Shown here: in pieces, positions 6,509-15,987 of the stretch
How positions within the stretch are numbered: the stretch's first letter is position 1
Layout: each line of letters begins with the position of its first letter
Assembly (NCBI RefSeq): GCF_027214005.1
Contig: NZ_JAPWGY010000002.1
Coordinates: 372,001 to 436,000 of the forward strand
Direction of reading: 5' to 3'
DNA length: 64,000 bases
From: Kiloniella laminariae
GTDB lineage: Bacteria; Pseudomonadota; Alphaproteobacteria; Kiloniellales; Kiloniellaceae
Program-made: the position numbers and the translations under genes
The notes under the pieces: generated by a model
Seen by the model: the letters and a program-made list of their open reading frames with translations, nothing else
Database searches by the model: none
What the model was told of the DNA's origin: nothing

Positions 6509-7540
6509 ATGCAGATCGCTGATAGTTTTGCCAAGGCCGAGGAATACGCAGAACTCGCTTTTGCAACCATGAAGCAAAGAGGTATTCCCGCTACCCCCCA
6601 GAATTACACGCTCTGGTATGATTATGTCAGCGACAAAAACCCTGAACTGAAAATGGCAATCGATGCCATTCTTGATCAACATGGAAGTTTTTCTTCTGAA
6701 ATCTGTCAGCAGCTGTTCCAGAAGTTTTATCAGATAGAAGGCAATCACAGTGATGAAATTCACCAAGTGGGCCTGAAACTGCAAAGCACCATGAAACAGG
6801 TGATCGAGCAGATTGGTGTTGCAGGAAGTGACAGCGAGAATTACGGAGAGAAGATCGCCAGCCTTGCGACCGATATCGCCAGCGAAGACAACGTTGCCTC
6901 ACTGAAAAGCTTTGTCGAAGAAATTGTCCTCGAAACTGCTGCGATCACAGAAAAAAACAAGGCCTTGCAAAACCAGTTGCAACAATCTTCGCAAGAGATC
7001 AGCAAACTTCAGCAAAATCTTGACCGGGTCAAGGCAGAATCCCTGACCGATGCCCTGACGCAGATCGGGAACCGCAAACTCTTTGACGCCAAGTTGATGC
7101 AGGAAGCAGGAAATGCTTCAGCCGAAGGCACCGAACTCTGTCTCCTGCTGATGGATATAGATCACTTCAAGAAATTCAACGACACCTACGGTCACCGGAT
7201 CGGCGACGAGGTGCTTAAGGTGGTTGGCAAGAAGCTCGTTGAAGCTGTTAAAGGTCAAGATACCCCTGCCCGATACGGCGGAGAAGAGTTTGCCTGCATA
7301 CTCCCTGATACAAGCCTTGAAGATGCTGCCGATCTTGCCGACCAGATCCGGGAGAAAATTTCCAAACAGGTGCTCAAAAACAAAAAAACCGGGCAGGAAT
7401 TTGGCCGGATTACCTTATCTATTGGTGTCTCCAGATACGTCATCGGAGAGGCACTCGAAAATCTGGTCCAACGCGCTGACGAAGCACTGTACCGGGCAAA
7501 AAATCAGGGGCGGAACAAGGTAATCAAGGAGATATCCTGA
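6509..7540 (+). CDS. Diguanylate cyclase (GGDEF domain)
   Basis: A 343-residue soluble protein expected to make cyclic di-GMP from two GTP. The N-terminal 150 residues are helical and lack a recognised sensor domain; a coiled coil at about 147-175 (Gln-rich) leads into the GGDEF domain (about 178-343). The active-site motif is GGEEF (257-261), and the metal-binding MDIDHFKKFND and YGH signature are intact, so catalysis is likely. The inhibitory site position holds KGQD (248-251) instead of RxxD, so feedback by product may be weak. The start has GAGAAGGAAACAGAGG upstream. No phosphodiesterase gene is adjacent, but an orphan PilZ gene lies 37 kb downstream. Confidence 0.93.
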   Translation: MQIADSFAKAEEYAELAFATMKQRGIPATPQNYTLWYDYVSDKNPELKMAIDAILDQHGSFSSEICQQLFQKFYQIEGNHSDEIHQVGLKLQSTMKQVIEQIGVAGSDSENYGEKIASLATDIASEDNVASLKSFVEEIVLETAAITEKNKALQNQLQQSSQEISKLQQNLDRVKAESLTDALTQIGNRKLFDAKLMQEAGNASAEGTELCLLLMDIDHFKKFNDTYGHRIGDEVLKVVGKKLVEAVKGQDTPARYGGEEFACILPDTSLEDAADLADQIREKISKQVLKNKKTGQEFGRITLSIGVSRYVIGEALENLVQRADEALYRAKNQGRNKVIKEIS

Positions 7541-7945: not shown

Positions 7946-7967
7946 TATTTCGGTAATTCCAGAAATA
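7946..7967. promoter_or_regulatory. Putative ArsR operator upstream of arsR-like gene
   Basis: TATTTC, ten bases, GAAATA form an inverted repeat 38 bases before the ArsR-family start. It contains AATTCCAGAAATA. A related TTCCAGAA-bearing sequence recurs before the downstream flavoprotein gene, which makes a regulator site more likely than chance. Confidence 0.5.
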
Positions 7968-8005
7968 CAGTTGACAAATAAATTTGAAAAGCCCATCTTC
8001 CTAGC

Positions 8006-8332
8006 ATGAAAACAGATTTTGCAGCATCACAACTTGAAGCACTGGGCAAACCGACCCGGCTGGATATTTTTCGTACCCTGATTCGTGCTGGGAGTGAAGG
8101 TTTACCTGTTGGTTCTCTGCAAGAAAGGCTGGATATTGCCCCCTCCACTCTCTCGCATCATCTGAAGACGTTACTGATATCAGGGCTGATTACCCAGGAA
8201 CGACAGGCCACGACCCTGATCTGCCGCGCCAACTACCAGTCCATGCAAGAGCTGATCGACTTTCTGATGTCGGAATGCTGTGTTGAGGGCAGCAGAACAA
8301 CTGAGCCTGACTGCACCACCAAGCGCTGTTAA
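8006..8332 (+). CDS. ArsR/SmtB family transcriptional regulator
   Basis: A 108-residue winged-helix repressor of the ArsR type. The start GKPTRLDIFRTLIRAGSEGLPVGSLQERL and the recognition helix region APSTLSHHLKTLLISGLI fit the family. The usual ELCVC metal site of helix alpha-3 is absent; instead cysteines are clustered at the C-terminus (SECC near 90-93, then two more in TEPDCTTKRC). A vicinal cysteine pair near the C-terminus is the arrangement of ArsR proteins that sense As(III) with sites outside the DNA-binding helix. It heads the cassette with the flavoprotein and the MFS gene and probably represses all three. Confidence 0.88.
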   Translation: MKTDFAASQLEALGKPTRLDIFRTLIRAGSEGLPVGSLQERLDIAPSTLSHHLKTLLISGLITQERQATTLICRANYQSMQELIDFLMSECCVEGSRTTEPDCTTKRC

Positions 8333-8383
8333 ACCCACTTACCTGCCCTTCCTGTTCCAAGGGCTGTTGTTTTGAACTTCATT

Positions 8384-8408
8384 ATTTCCATATTTCCAGA
8401 ATAAAGGT
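8384..8408 (+). promoter_or_regulatory. Second candidate ArsR site before the flavoprotein gene
   Basis: TTATTTCC-ATA-TTTCCAGAATAA lies just upstream of the flavoprotein start and repeats the TTCCAGAA core and the flanking A/T bases of the site at 7946-7967. The dyad is less perfect. It may be a second operator giving independent control of the oxidoreductase and transporter. Confidence 0.4.
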
Positions 8409-8414
8409 AATAAA

Positions 8415-9875
8415 ATGAAAAACACCAACCAGACAATCGCAATCATCGGTGCAGGGCCTGTTGGTCTTGCTGCTGCAGTCCGGGCCATGGAACGGGGACT
8501 TGTGCCAATCATCTTTGAGAAAGGTTCCGTTGTCGGCCAGGCAATCCGGCAGTGGCAACATGTCCGTATGTTTTCCCCCTGGCAATACAACATTGACAGC
8601 GCCTGTCGACAATTGTTGCTAGCCTCCGGCTGGCAGGAACCAGCAGCGGAAACCTTTCCCACAGGCGGTGATTTTGTCGCCGGTTATCTTGCGCCGCTGG
8701 CAGAGTTGCCCGAGTTGAAAAAACATTTGCTGTTTTCGAGCAAGGTTACCGCGATCTCCCGGGTCGGATATGACAAGTTGAAAACCCCAGGCAGAAACTC
8801 GACCCCGTTCGAGATCCGCTATCAAAAAGATGCGGAAGAAAAAGTGTTGCTGGTCGATGCAGTGCTTGATGCATCCGGCACCTGGGACAGCCCCAATCCA
8901 GCAGGGGCCAACGGCCTGCCCGCCATTGGAGAAAAGCAGGCAGCAGCCCGGATCAGCTATGGTATGCCAGACATCCTGGGGACCAAAAGAAACCGCTACG
9001 CCGGCAAGCGTGTGGCTGTGCTCGGCATGGGACATTCAGCCACCGGCAATCTGATCGACCTTGTCGCCCTCAAGAAGCAGGTCCCTGATACTTCAATCGT
9101 ATGGCTGGTACGAGGCGAAGATCCGAGCCGCGCCTTTGGTGGTGGCGCCAATGACCAGCTGGCAGCCCGAGGTGCTCTTGGTGTCGAAATCAGGAAACTG
9201 CTGGAAGAAGGAGATCTCAGCTTGAAAGCCGGGTTCCGCCTGTCACATATCAGCGAAGACAACACAGGTTTGCAGCTTCAAAGCGAGGGAATTTCTACCT
9301 CTCAACAGATCAGCGTAGATGAACTCATCGTCTCCACCGGCTTCCGGCCTGACTTTTCTTTTGCCAGCGAAATTCGCCTCTTGCTCGACCCGGCACTCGA
9401 ATGTCCACCTGCCCTGGCCCCTTTGATTGATCCCAATGAACACAGCTGTGGTACGGTGCGGCCACATGGTGCGGCAGAACTGGCGCAGCCGGAACAGGGC
9501 TTTTATATTGCCGGTATGAAGTCCTACGGACGGGCACCGACCTTTCTCACGTTGACAGGCTACGAACAGGTCCGGTCGATACTCGCTGAAATTGCAGGCG
9601 ACAAGGAAGCCGCTGCCCGGGTAGAATTACGCTTGCCGGAAACAGGTGTCTGTTCGTCGGATCGTGTCACAGAAACGGGAAAAGCATCCAGCTGCTGTGG
9701 TGCCCCTGCGATTTCGCCGGATACCGCTACAGAAACGGAGAAAGCATCCGGCTGTTGTGGCGGCCCCGCGATTCAGAGAAAAGACGCCTGCTGCGTTAAA
9801 GACGAAGTAGCCAAAGACCAGGGAAAAGCCGGTTGCGGCTGTGGTACAACATCCCCACAAGAGGCCGTAGCCTAA
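8415..9875 (+). CDS. FAD-dependent oxidoreductase with Cys-rich C-terminal tail
   Basis: A 486-residue flavoprotein of the flavin monooxygenase/NAD(P)-binding type. GAGPVG at 12-17 binds FAD, a second Rossmann motif GMGHSATG at about 204-211 should bind NAD(P)H, and STGFRPD near 310 is the typical second FAD contact. The last 75 residues are unrelated to the enzyme core and hold nine cysteines: 413, pairs at 427-428, 447-448 and 459-460, and 474 and 476. Two 20-residue copies (416-435 and 436-455) are tandem duplicates, each ending in a CCG-PA motif. Adjacent cysteines of this kind bind As(III) or other soft metalloids in ArsD and ArsM proteins. Position behind an ArsR gene and before an MFS exporter suggests a role in metalloid or reactive-sulfur detoxification; the substrate is unknown. 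Confidence 0.8.
   Translation: MKNTNQTIAIIGAGPVGLAAAVRAMERGLVPIIFEKGSVVGQAIRQWQHVRMFSPWQYNIDSACRQLLLASGWQEPAAETFPTGGDFVAGYLAPLAELPELKKHLLFSSKVTAISRVGYDKLKTPGRNSTPFEIRYQKDAEEKVLLVDAVLDASGTWDSPNPAGANGLPAIGEKQAAARISYGMPDILGTKRNRYAGKRVAVLGMGHSATGNLIDLVALKKQVPDTSIVWLVRGEDPSRAFGGGANDQLAARGALGVEIRKLLEEGDLSLKAGFRLSHISEDNTGLQLQSEGISTSQQISVDELIVSTGFRPDFSFASEIRLLLDPALECPPALAPLIDPNEHSCGTVRPHGAAELAQPEQGFYIAGMKSYGRAPTFLTLTGYEQVRSILAEIAGDKEAAARVELRLPETGVCSSDRVTETGKASSCCGAPAISPDTATETEKASGCCGGPAIQRKDACCVKDEVAKDQGKAGCGCGTTSPQEAVA
9660..9779 (+). repeat. 60-bp in-frame tandem duplication in the flavoprotein tail
   Basis: Two 60-base units, 9660-9719 and 9720-9779, encode DRVTETGKASSCCGAPAISP and DTATETEKASGCCGGPAIQR. 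Shared blocks such as ACAGAAACGG and AAAGCATCC remain visible in the DNA, so the duplication is fairly recent or under constraint. Confidence 0.85.
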
Positions 9876-9877
9876 AA

Positions 9878-11089
9878 ATGAAAGCACACACTAACAGGCA
9901 AAAATATCTGGTTATCGGGGCACTGGGCAGCAGTCAAACACTCGCTTGGGCCTCGAGTTACTATCTTATAGCCATACTGGCCGACGCCATGGCCCTGGAC
10001 ACCAACAGTAGTACGACCATGGTCTTTGCTGCCTTTTCCGCCGCCCTATTACTCAGTGCCCTGCTCGGGCCCAAGATGGGCAAAACCATTGACCGGATTG
10101 GTGGACGCGGCGTGCTTGTGGCCTCAAACCTGACCTTCGCCGCAGGCCTGTTGCTGCTCGCCTCAGCCGAAACAACCCTCTCTCTCTGGTTAGGCTGGGG
10201 CGTGATGGGGGCTGCGATGGGTTTTGGGCTGTACGATGCCGCCTTTGCCACACTTGGGCGTCTTTACGGTACATCGGCCCGTTCAGCCATCACCGGGATC
10301 ACATTAATTGCCGGTTTTGCCAGCACCATCGGATGGCCGCTGACCGCCTGGGGGGAAGCCGAGCTGGGTTGGCGCATGACCTGCGTCGCCTGGGCCATCG
10401 GACATTTGCTGTTTGCCTTGCCGCTGAACTTCTTTTGCCTGCCAAAGTTCATCGTTAACAAGGAGATCGCAGAAGAAAACGAAGCCCCTCATATCGTTCT
10501 GGATCGGACCATGTGGCTGTTGGGCTTTGCCTTTGCCGCCGGTTGGGTAATCTCCACCGGGATGGCGGCCCATCTGCCGCGGTTGCTCGAAGCTGCCGGG
10601 GCCACCTCTGCACAAGCTGTTGCAGCGGGGGCTTTGATGGGTCCGGCACAGGTCGCCGCCCGCCTGCTTGAAGCCGGATACCTCAAACGCTTCCATCCGA
10701 TTATCTCGGCCAGGATCGCGGCAATCACCCATCCCATTGGGGCGTTTCTGCTTATTACCGCTGCTGGCCTGGGGGGTGGTGGCTGGCTCGCCCTGCCTTT
10801 TGCCCTGCTCCACGGCACGGGCAATGGTATCCTGACCATTGCCAAGGGAACTCTGCCGCTGGCACTCTATGGCCCGAAAAACTATGGCTACCGGATCGGA
10901 CTGCTGGGCATGCCTTCACGTCTGGCACAGGTTGGTGCCCCGCTCGCCTTTGGCTGGCTGATAAGCCACTATGGATCTGGCGCACTTCTGGTTTCGGGCG
11001 GTCTTGCCCTGCTTGCTTTTTCCGCCTTTATTCTGGTGAGAGTACCAAGCGGTTCCGGGACGGAAGAGCTGAGCGTAACAACAGGCTGA
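9878..11089 (+). CDS. MFS transporter
   Basis: A 403-residue major facilitator with about twelve hydrophobic segments. The loop 2-3 region KMGKTIDRIGGRGVL matches the MFS GxxxDRxGRR-like signature. Function is probably efflux of the compound handled by the upstream flavoprotein, an inference from gene context only. The ATG at 9878 begins two bases after the flavoprotein stop; a TTG at 9833 would add 15 residues overlapping the previous gene and is less likely. The two genes are surely cotranscribed, and the unit ends at a strong hairpin. Confidence 0.85.
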   Translation: MKAHTNRQKYLVIGALGSSQTLAWASSYYLIAILADAMALDTNSSTTMVFAAFSAALLLSALLGPKMGKTIDRIGGRGVLVASNLTFAAGLLLLASAETTLSLWLGWGVMGAAMGFGLYDAAFATLGRLYGTSARSAITGITLIAGFASTIGWPLTAWGEAELGWRMTCVAWAIGHLLFALPLNFFCLPKFIVNKEIAEENEAPHIVLDRTMWLLGFAFAAGWVISTGMAAHLPRLLEAAGATSAQAVAAGALMGPAQVAARLLEAGYLKRFHPIISARIAAITHPIGAFLLITAAGLGGGGWLALPFALLHGTGNGILTIAKGTLPLALYGPKNYGYRIGLLGMPSRLAQVGAPLAFGWLISHYGSGALLVSGGLALLAFSAFILVRVPSGSGTEELSVTTG

Positions 11090-13224: not shown

Positions 13225-14778
13225 TTATTCCCACTCGATCGTCCCGGGTGGTTTCGAGGTGCAGTCATAAACGACGCGGTTGATGCCGCGGACTTCGTTG
13301 ATGATGCGGTTGGATACCCGCCCCAGAAACTCATGATCAAAATGATAATAGTCAGCGGTCATGCCGTCAGTTGAGGTTACCGCGCGCAGGGCACAGACAA
13401 AATCATAGGTCCGGGCATCGCCCATCACCCCGACGGTACGGACCGGCAACAGCACGGCAAAGGCCTGCCAGATCGCGTCATAAAGCCCGGCATTGCGGAT
13501 CTCTTCGAGATAGATCGCATCGGCCTTGCGCAGGATGTCACACTTTTCTCTGGTCAGGGGCTGGCCGGGAATACGAATGGCCAGACCGGGACCCGGGAAA
13601 GGATGACGATCAACAAAGGTATCCGGAAGACCCAGTTCGCGGCCCAAATCACGCACTTCATCCTTGAAGAGTTCGCGCAACGGCTCGACCAGCTTCATGT
13701 TCATGCGTTCGGGCAGTCCACCAACGTTGTGGTGCGACTTGATCGTCACGCTTGGGCCGCCGGTGAAGGAGACGGACTCGATCACATCCGGATAGAGCGT
13801 ACCCTGGGCCAGGAAATCAGCTCCGCCGATTTTCTTGGCTTCGGCTTCGAAGATCTCGATAAACAGACGCCCGATGGTCTTGCGTTTGGTTTCCGGATCA
13901 AACTCGTCACCCAGCGCCGCAAAGAACTGGTCAGCGGCATCCACGTGGATCAGCTTGATATTATAGTGATCGCGGAACAGGGTTACGACCTGTTCGGCTT
14001 CGCCCATGCGCATAAACCCTGTATCGACAAAGACACAGGTCAGCTGTTCGCCGATGGCTTCGTTCAGCAGCACCGCAACAACCGAACTGTCGACCCCGCC
14101 GGACAGGCCACAGAGCACACGCCCCTCACCAACCTGTTCGCGGATCTTGGCGATTTCCTGATCCTTGAAAGCGGCCATGGTCCAGTCACCGCCACAGCCC
14201 GCAACGCCGTGGGTGAAGTTTTTCAGCAGTTGCGCACCATGGGGCGTGTGCACCACTTCGGGGTGGAACTGCACCGCGTAAAATTTCTTGTCGTCATTGG
14301 CAACAGCCGCGAAAGGCGCGCCTTCGGAAGTGGCAACAACCCGGAAACCCGGAGCCAGTTTTCCAACCCGGTCGCCATGGCTCATCCAGACCTGTTCTTT
14401 GGTCCCGACACCCCAGACACCGTGGAAGAGCGCACAGTCTTCCTTGATCTCGACATAGGCGCGGCCAAATTCCTGATGATCCGATGTTTCCACCGATCCA
14501 CCAAGCTGGGCCATCATGGTCTGCTGACCATAACAGATGCCCAGGACAGGCACGCCCATCTCGAACACTTTGGCTGGTGCCGCCGGAGCATCTGCCCAGG
14601 TGACCGAAGCCGGTCCACCAGAGAGAATAATGCCTTTGGGCGCGAAGTCATCGAGGAAGGCATCATCGATGGCGTTAAAGGGATGTATTTCAGAATAAAC
14701 CCCGCTTTCGCGCACACGTCGTGCGATCAGCTGGGTAACCTGTGACCCGAAATCGATTATGAGAATACGATCAGTCAT
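13225..14778 (-). CDS. guaA: GMP synthase (glutamine-hydrolysing)
   Basis: GuaA aminates XMP to GMP. The 517-residue protein has the class I glutamine amidotransferase domain first (nucleophile Cys 82 in GICYGQQ, His-Glu in FHPEVVHT), then the ATP pyrophosphatase domain with SGGVDSSV and the C-terminal dimerisation domain ending in KPPGTIEWE. Length and ending are normal. ATG 14778 is the usual start ([12 protein letters not shown]); an in-frame upstream codon at 14817 would add 13 residues not seen in the family. It stands alone here; guaB is 3.6 kb away on the same strand. Confidence 0.97.
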
Positions 14779-14976
14779 GGAGGGTACGTCTGCTCCATAG
14801 ATAGGCCTGCAGAGCATCTGGTCTGTCAGGCAAGTTCAGTTTCATGCCCTTACCTGCCGGAATCGACAGCAAATGTCAAAGGCTGAAAGGGCAATTTCAT
14901 CGCTTTTCCCGCACTTTTATTCAAATAACACGGGCGGCTGGCACCCCGGCTTTCCTGCCTGTCGCTGGCGTGAAGA

Positions 14977-15892: not shown

Positions 15893-15987
15893 GTAACAAT
15901 ATTGTCCTGTAACAATTTTTCTGGGTAACAATTTTTCTGGGTAACAATTTTGTCGGGTAACAATTTTGTCGGGTAACAATTTTGTGG
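15893..15987 (+). repeat. 16-bp tandem repeat, about six copies
   Basis: Six consecutive 16-base units start at 15893, 15909, 15925, 15941, 15957 and 15973. Each begins GTAACAAT; units 2-3 read GTAACAATTTTTCTGG and units 4-5 read GTAACAATTTTGTCGG. The first unit contains the perfect dyad ACAATATTGT, and the others keep ACAATTTTGT-like versions. The array fills the gap between the rsmB-like stop and the TSUP gene start. Confidence 0.92.

Follow-up and report, generated by a model that had tools for sequence, protein, structure and literature searches.

We propose that the cysteine-rich C-terminal tail of an FAD/NAD(P)-dependent oxidoreductase of Kiloniella laminariae is a flexible thiolate module that would bind trivalent arsenicals and other soft metalloids, that forms part of an arsenical-detoxification cassette putatively controlled by ArsR, and that may work either attached to the enzyme or alone. 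On the strength of sequence comparison, we give this reading a probability of about 60%. The observations behind it are the conservation of the tail cysteines, the occurrence of the family in arsenic islands, a conserved operator-like sequence, and a stand-alone homolog of the tail that occupies the same locus in sister genomes and is under purifying selection.

The flavoprotein, its tail and the surrounding genes

The window, i.e. the whole 64-kb stretch of DNA analysed, carries the flavoprotein gene at positions 8415..9875 (plus strand, as all genes below unless stated otherwise). Its 486-aa product exceeds the Pfam gathering scores of PF13738 (49.8 against 30; E 3.8e-13) and PF00743 (34.4 against 22; E 1.1e-8), the domains of FMO / Pyr_redox_3 two-dinucleotide flavoproteins. 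By their likeness to known Rossmann motifs, we take GAGPVG (residues 12-17, 8448..8465) to bind FAD, and GMGHSA (residues 204-209, 9024..9041) presumably binds NAD(P); G12, G14, P15 and G17 are conserved in at least 95% of the 60 family members aligned below, and G204, G206, H207, S208 and A209 are conserved as well. The last 74 residues (413-486, 9651..9872) form the tail with its nine cysteines at positions 413, 427/428, 447/448, 459/460, 474 and 476. The preliminary description had noticed nine cysteines at the C-terminus, mostly as adjacent pairs, and indeed six of them sit in three CC pairs, next to one single cysteine and one CGC. The tail is probably flexible: it is mostly of low confidence in the AlphaFold2 model, with pLDDT below 50 over residues 407-464 and 477-486, and the two models of medium quality that were made for the family (mean pLDDT 67.7 and 71.6) place neither the tail nor the core residue Cys345 with confidence.

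Nine cysteines within 75 aa is the highest value among the window's 67 open reading frames with a length of 150 aa or more. Given that three further frames, which are not confirmed genes, reach eight, the cysteine count alone is weak evidence, and it is conservation that constitutes strong evidence. Part of the tail arose by a tandem duplication at the DNA level, as had been claimed. The two 60-bp copies are identical at 43 of 60 positions in the phase originally given (9660-9719 and 9720-9779) and at 47 of 60 in the best phase of the 60-bp shift (9654..9713 and 9714..9773); when all adjacent 60-bp block pairs of the entire window are ranked by identity, the top 15 fall at this place. The duplication is absent from the output of Tandem Repeats Finder at its default score for the 64-kb window, and is therefore a diverged one; the sole array listed by this program is a 16-bp repeat of 5.8 copies (GTAACAATTTTGTCGG) at 15893-15985. 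The closest relative, another Kiloniella laminariae sequence (NZ_KB893169.1), has a single copy of the 60-bp unit. Cysteines in the alignment columns of residues 427 and 428 occur in one of the 60 proteins each, namely in the window protein, so this pair is a product of the local duplication; which of the two copies is called the insertion is an arbitrary label.

Upstream of the flavoprotein gene, and separated from it by 82 bp, lies a gene of the ArsR family (8006..8332, 108 aa; NF033788, PF01022/PF12840), in agreement with the initial reading of the locus. Its product passes the ArsR/SmtB cut-off of NF033788 (64.9 bits against 55) and contains Cys73, the vicinal pair Cys91-Cys92, Cys103 and Cys108. 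The palindrome TATTTC-N10-GAAATA with perfect half-sites (7946..7967) precedes arsR as a putative ArsR site and is followed after 3 bp by a -35-like TTGACA (7971..7976), assigned by its letters only; the operator is recognisably conserved upstream of arsR in all eight genus loci aligned. An imperfect operator-like sequence with two mismatches to the half-sites (8383..8403, within 8383-8412) lies between arsR and the flavoprotein gene and is possibly a second ArsR site. Two bases past the flavoprotein stop codon begins the gene of an ArsK-like MFS exporter (9878..11089, 403 aa; NF033733 E 1e-56, PF07690), which at 192.5 bits stays below the ArsK equivalog cut-off of 400. The locus is flanked on the left by a GGDEF protein gene (6509..7540; identified by Pfam and synteny) and on the right by a gene on the minus strand (13225..14817), presumably a guaA-like GMP synthase as judged from its sequence, with homologs at the same place in seven sister loci.

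Conservation of the tail and its arsenic-island setting

Relatives of the flavoprotein occur in 33 of the 385 genomes searched in the class, counting that of the window itself, at 11 loci in named genome contigs and in 127 plasmid records, and the family extends over Alpha-, Beta- and Gammaproteobacteria, Actinomycetota and Bacillota. We aligned 60 proteins, made up of the window protein, the named loci other than the fragment L012 (10 of 11), 29 of 35 further places in the class (six had no locus) and 20 plasmid records picked for spread; near-copies, such as four Planococcus proteins, are contained in this set. Cys413 (in LPETGVC; 9651..9653) is invariant (60/60), and the column of Cys447 holds cysteine in 60 and that of Cys448 in 56 proteins, followed by Cys459 (36/60), Cys460 (35/60), and Cys474 and Cys476 (29/60 each). 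A CC pair is present in 58 tails; the exceptions are L004, which is cut by a contig end, and L056 with C-x4-C. Tails range from 14 to 83 aa with two to nine cysteines, and their cysteine share amounts to 12.7% (348 of 2736 residues) versus 0.58% in the core (144 of 24897). The longest tail form, found in 24 of the 60 proteins, adds the module CC-x2-D...GC-x-C. In the core, the only invariant cysteine is Cys345 in NEHSCGTVRPHG (9447..9449; 60/60), and no conserved CxxC or CxxxxC exists there among the 60 aligned proteins.

The tail had been described as grafted onto a flavoenzyme, which these data contradict, as a cysteine tail is a trait of the whole family. Conservation among orthologs, proposed earlier as a check, holds for the core cysteines of the tail, i.e. 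Cys413 and a CC pair, but not for their total number or for the pair added by the duplication. The Planococcus flavoproteins (L008-L011) have an additional NCCS motif at the N-terminus, as well as a tail that ends in CC. In a Bosea metagenome-assembled genome (L003:3670-5353), ArsR and the flavoprotein share one open frame in which the CC end of ArsR runs into a flavoprotein without its first approximately 18 residues, which is either a true fusion or an assembly error. Selenocysteine or read-through, considered for TGA or TAG codons inside several class matches, was rejected: the stops look terminal, as no convincing Cys-rich continuation was seen behind them at 40 loci.

The genetic neighbourhood was assessed by eye in the 20 plasmid records, picked from the 127 for taxonomic spread. 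The family resides in arsenic islands, where its gene often has a regulator on one side and an ArsK-type MFS exporter on the other. An ArsR gene is present in the stretch of 17 records, and the remaining three contain MarR (L055, L057) or PadR (L048) genes. An MFS gene directly follows the flavoprotein gene in 12 records; of eight MFS proteins scanned against the ArsK profile, seven match and two pass the cut-off, those of Ensifer and Rhizobium (513 and 636 bits), both encoded directly downstream of the flavoprotein. Other named arsenic genes occur in 15 of the 20 records (none in L044, L048, L049, L059 and L061). Seven records (L045, L050, L052, L054, L055, L058, L061) have a gene for GNAT or ArsN1 (arsinothricin acetyltransferase) in the vicinity of the flavoprotein, a hint that the substrates may be organoarsenicals. 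Four records contain another FAD oxidoreductase, which is shorter (346-356 aa) and has no or one cysteine; the two that were scanned are closest to ArsO and score under its cut-off.

A free-standing 7-cysteine protein in sister genomes

A class-wide query with the tail led to a 57-codon open frame in a genome of the same genus (G257) that has no flavoprotein match; the mini gene encodes 55 aa and lies behind an arsR ortholog. Eight of the nine genomes of the genus contain the module, six as a stand-alone gene (G257, G385, G387, G389, G390, G391), while in the window and in G386 it is a flavoprotein tail. The remaining genome, G388, yielded no module match; it is 77% complete and likewise shows no true guaA. 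The same GGDEF and guaA genes flank all eight loci. In the six mini loci, where flavoprotein and exporter are absent, probing with the window genes gave matches between these anchors for arsR and the tail stretch only, whereas the window and G386 share the order arsR-flavoprotein-MFS-DUF6552-SDR-LysR. A vicinal cysteine pair is present in the ArsR proteins of all six mini loci, as in that of the window.

The six mini proteins (55-60 aa) share seven invariant cysteines, and by sequence comparison they are homologous to the distal part of the flavoprotein tail (9735..9863; profile E 9.8e-12). When the cysteines were kept fixed, none of 1000 shuffles reached the alignment score with the window tail for any of the six proteins; with cysteine and glycine fixed, 0, 0, 0, 4, 0 and 3 of 1000 did so. 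For every mini protein the best-scoring tail among the 60 flavoproteins is a Kiloniella one, and the ending CGCxC, common to all six, recurs among the 60 only in K. laminariae. No cysteine precedes the first CC of the mini protein, which consequently has no counterpart of Cys413. The mini genes are under purifying selection, with a pairwise omega of 0.11-0.42 in 15 pairs, for which dS is partly saturated and the L079 gene was read from a far-upstream ATG, its likely start being a GTG.

No established family accounts for the tail or the mini protein. The only Pfam match of the tail was Galaxin_repeat (17.1 bits, below the cut-off of 28), the mini proteins hit two Pfam families at chance level (best E 0.13 and 0.19), no NCBIfam match of either had an E value under 8, and a PDB search with the mini-protein profile found no chain at E up to 1. 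Assignment to a known ArsD or metallothionein family was rejected, given that neither tail nor mini protein matched such a family in Pfam or NCBIfam and the mini profile matched no PDB entry. Among the literature matches listed, from which subscription journals were mostly missing so that absence is not proved, we recognised no description of this flavoprotein with its Cys tail or of the mini protein.

Beyond the genus, at E up to 1e-3, the module was encountered only as a flavoprotein tail and not in free form. A single-sequence query of 52 further genomes of the order gave no match at E up to 0.01. The profile search of the class hit 19 of 385 genomes at this threshold; the 15 places at or below 2e-4 comprise the G257 mini gene and 14 flavoprotein-linked places, in frames of 464-604 codons situated at flavoprotein matches or immediately behind them, and the five remaining places are weak. 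Six weak class places (G304, G078, G357, G382, G033, G380) were considered as stand-alone genes and taken to be chance ORFs because their stretches contain no relative of arsR or the flavoprotein at E 1e-4; further weak matches in the class are G163, G331, G291 and G238. In the phylum, 15 of 398 genomes matched at E up to 1e-3, and each of the 14 loci besides the window encodes a full flavoprotein; in 13 cases the stretch examined also includes arsR upstream of it. Tail-only searches of plasmids returned 22 records, 17 of them at listed flavoprotein places, two with unrelated annotations (H119, H122) and three left unclassified (H109, H115, H117). The mini protein found 18 plasmid records at E up to 10, of which 12 are at listed flavoprotein places, five are weak (E 1 to 7) and lie in other annotations, and one (H129) was left unclassified. 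The preliminary description had suggested searching the tail alone to see whether it is confined to ArsR-adjacent flavoproteins: outside the genus it was found, at E up to 1e-3, only as a flavoprotein tail, but in the sister genomes it forms a separate ArsR-linked gene.

The genus differs in its exporters, too. Acr3 was found in five of the nine genomes and not in G385, G387, G390 and the incomplete G388, ArsB in none of the nine, and the window-type MFS only in the two flavoprotein genomes. Thus, G385, G387 and G390 (loci L080, L077 and L078) possess the arsR-mini pair and no detected Acr3, ArsB or window-type MFS, which fits a role of the mini protein in sequestration.

Proposed function, alternatives and relation to known systems

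We infer metalloid binding, control by ArsR, hand-over to the flavin and the reaction itself from this setting. That the module binds trivalent metalloids appears rather probable, and the proposed resemblance of the tail to a soft-metalloid-binding arm is supported as a likeness in sequence. The proximal part, consisting of Cys413 and the first conserved CC, probably forms a three-thiolate site that would capture the metalloid and present it to the flavin or the exporter; since it is near-universal in the flavoproteins, and since the mini protein has no Cys413, this part would serve the enzyme. Delivery to the flavin is a putative step, as the models place neither the tail nor Cys345 confidently. 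The distal module CC-CC-CGC of long-tailed members may add capacity and could act alone, and the wide variation in tail length and cysteine number fits a sponge more readily than an arm built for precise delivery. As to catalysis, we tentatively suggest an NAD(P)H/flavin-dependent, FMO-like oxidation of a trivalent (organo)arsenical, a first guess that is more likely to fail than to hold, and the neighbouring MFS protein would export arsenicals. A MerA-like dithiol reduction is unlikely because the core has no conserved redox disulfide.

The same lack of a conserved CxxC or CxxxxC in the core could be read differently, as a mobile C-terminal dithiol might supply the missing redox thiols. Large thioredoxin reductases use a C-terminal dithiol as a redox relay, and the tail might correspondingly pass electrons from FADH2 via its thiols to an external acceptor, a disulfide or a pentavalent arsenical, with no stable binding of a metalloid. 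In a Foldseek search with the model of a Planococcus relative, the bacillithiol-disulfide reductase YpdA (7a76) indeed came first; the match is weak as a whole, however (TM-score 0.35-0.36 by query length, rmsd about 10), and the list behind it contains many two-Rossmann flavoproteins. Moreover, up to nine cysteines exceed the needs of a relay, and the distal module exists in conserved form as a protein of its own with no flavin domain, so that we regard such a relay as improbable, with perhaps one chance in a handful.

Slightly less probable still is that the tail binds another soft ligand, such as Hg, Cu, Zn, Cd or sulfane sulfur, and that the link to arsenic is mainly one of neighbourhood. 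Vicinal cysteines bind many soft metals, mer genes lie near the flavoprotein in Afipia and Mammaliicoccus, as do genes for other metals in Streptomyces, Roseomonas and Rhodococcus, and the Roseomonas locus combines PadR and chromate genes with no named arsenic gene. Against this stand the named arsenic genes in three quarters of the 20 plasmid neighbourhoods read, the two directly downstream MFS genes above the ArsK cut-off, and the vicinal cysteine pair of ArsR in the window and in every mini locus. Very improbable is the view that the mini genes represent the decaying residue of a flavoprotein gene otherwise deleted and the tail a functionless product of low-complexity drift. A mini gene that sits in the place of the flavoprotein gene and is homologous only to its tail would be expected from such decay, and the tail is mostly of low confidence in the model, but the frame is open and intact in six genomes with low omega (dS partly saturated) and all seven cysteines invariant, and Cys413 and a CC pair are kept across phyla.

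Under the metalloid-binding reading, the distal tail may be an autonomous arsenic-binding module freed by gene fission, for which we see a chance somewhat short of even: an ancestral arsR-flavoenzyme-exporter cassette would have lost enzyme and pump in a single branch of the genus, and selection would have kept the 7-Cys tail as an ArsR-controlled mini protein that buffers or shuttles As(III) alone. Fission is the favoured, not a proved, direction of change, given that the long module is present in 24 of 60 flavoprotein tails and the free form has come to light in this genus alone. In a guaA tree with four outgroups, the six mini genomes form one clade beside the flavoprotein pair; in the trees of GGDEF and arsR, rooted at the midpoint, G391 stands beside that pair; the rooting of the change within the genus is tentative. 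If true, the fission would make the mini proteins a family of small arsenic binders not described before, and the system a natural experiment that separates binding from catalysis. With the same thiol module attached to an enzyme or free in sister species, at one locus and behind a like operator, the system offers a built-in test, in which the roles of sequestration, delivery and relay, as well as the evolutionary reduction of a resistance enzyme to its metal-binding part, can be addressed directly.

The ArsD metallochaperone and bacterial metallothioneins use vicinal or clustered cysteines for soft metals, a feature shared by the tail, which, like the mini protein, matches no profile of either. 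A possible functional parallel is MerA, an NAD(P)H/FAD enzyme whose C-terminal cysteines are described as passing Hg(II) to active-site cysteines, a separate N-terminal metal-binding domain, NmerA, delivering the metal to the core (PMC4500099). In contrast to MerA, the flavoprotein family has no conserved active-site CxxxxC, and its tail, with CC in nearly all members, is long and variable; an identity with MerA was rejected also by score (TIGR02053, 18.7 bits against 454.45). ArsO resembles the window protein as an FAD/NAD(P) protein, a flavin monooxygenase, found in ars clusters, and its function is given as undeciphered (PMC6514093, PMC6205960). It is shorter, however (about 346 aa), the four ArsO-like proteins that neighbour the flavoprotein, with their single or absent cysteine, have no tail, and an assignment of the flavoprotein to ArsO was rejected (NF040505, 29.6 bits against a cut-off of 425). 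ArsH, ArsV, ArsZ and ArsU are named as genes of organic-arsenical oxidation (PMC11719878); the best-scored domains of the window protein are Pyr_redox_3 and FMO-like.
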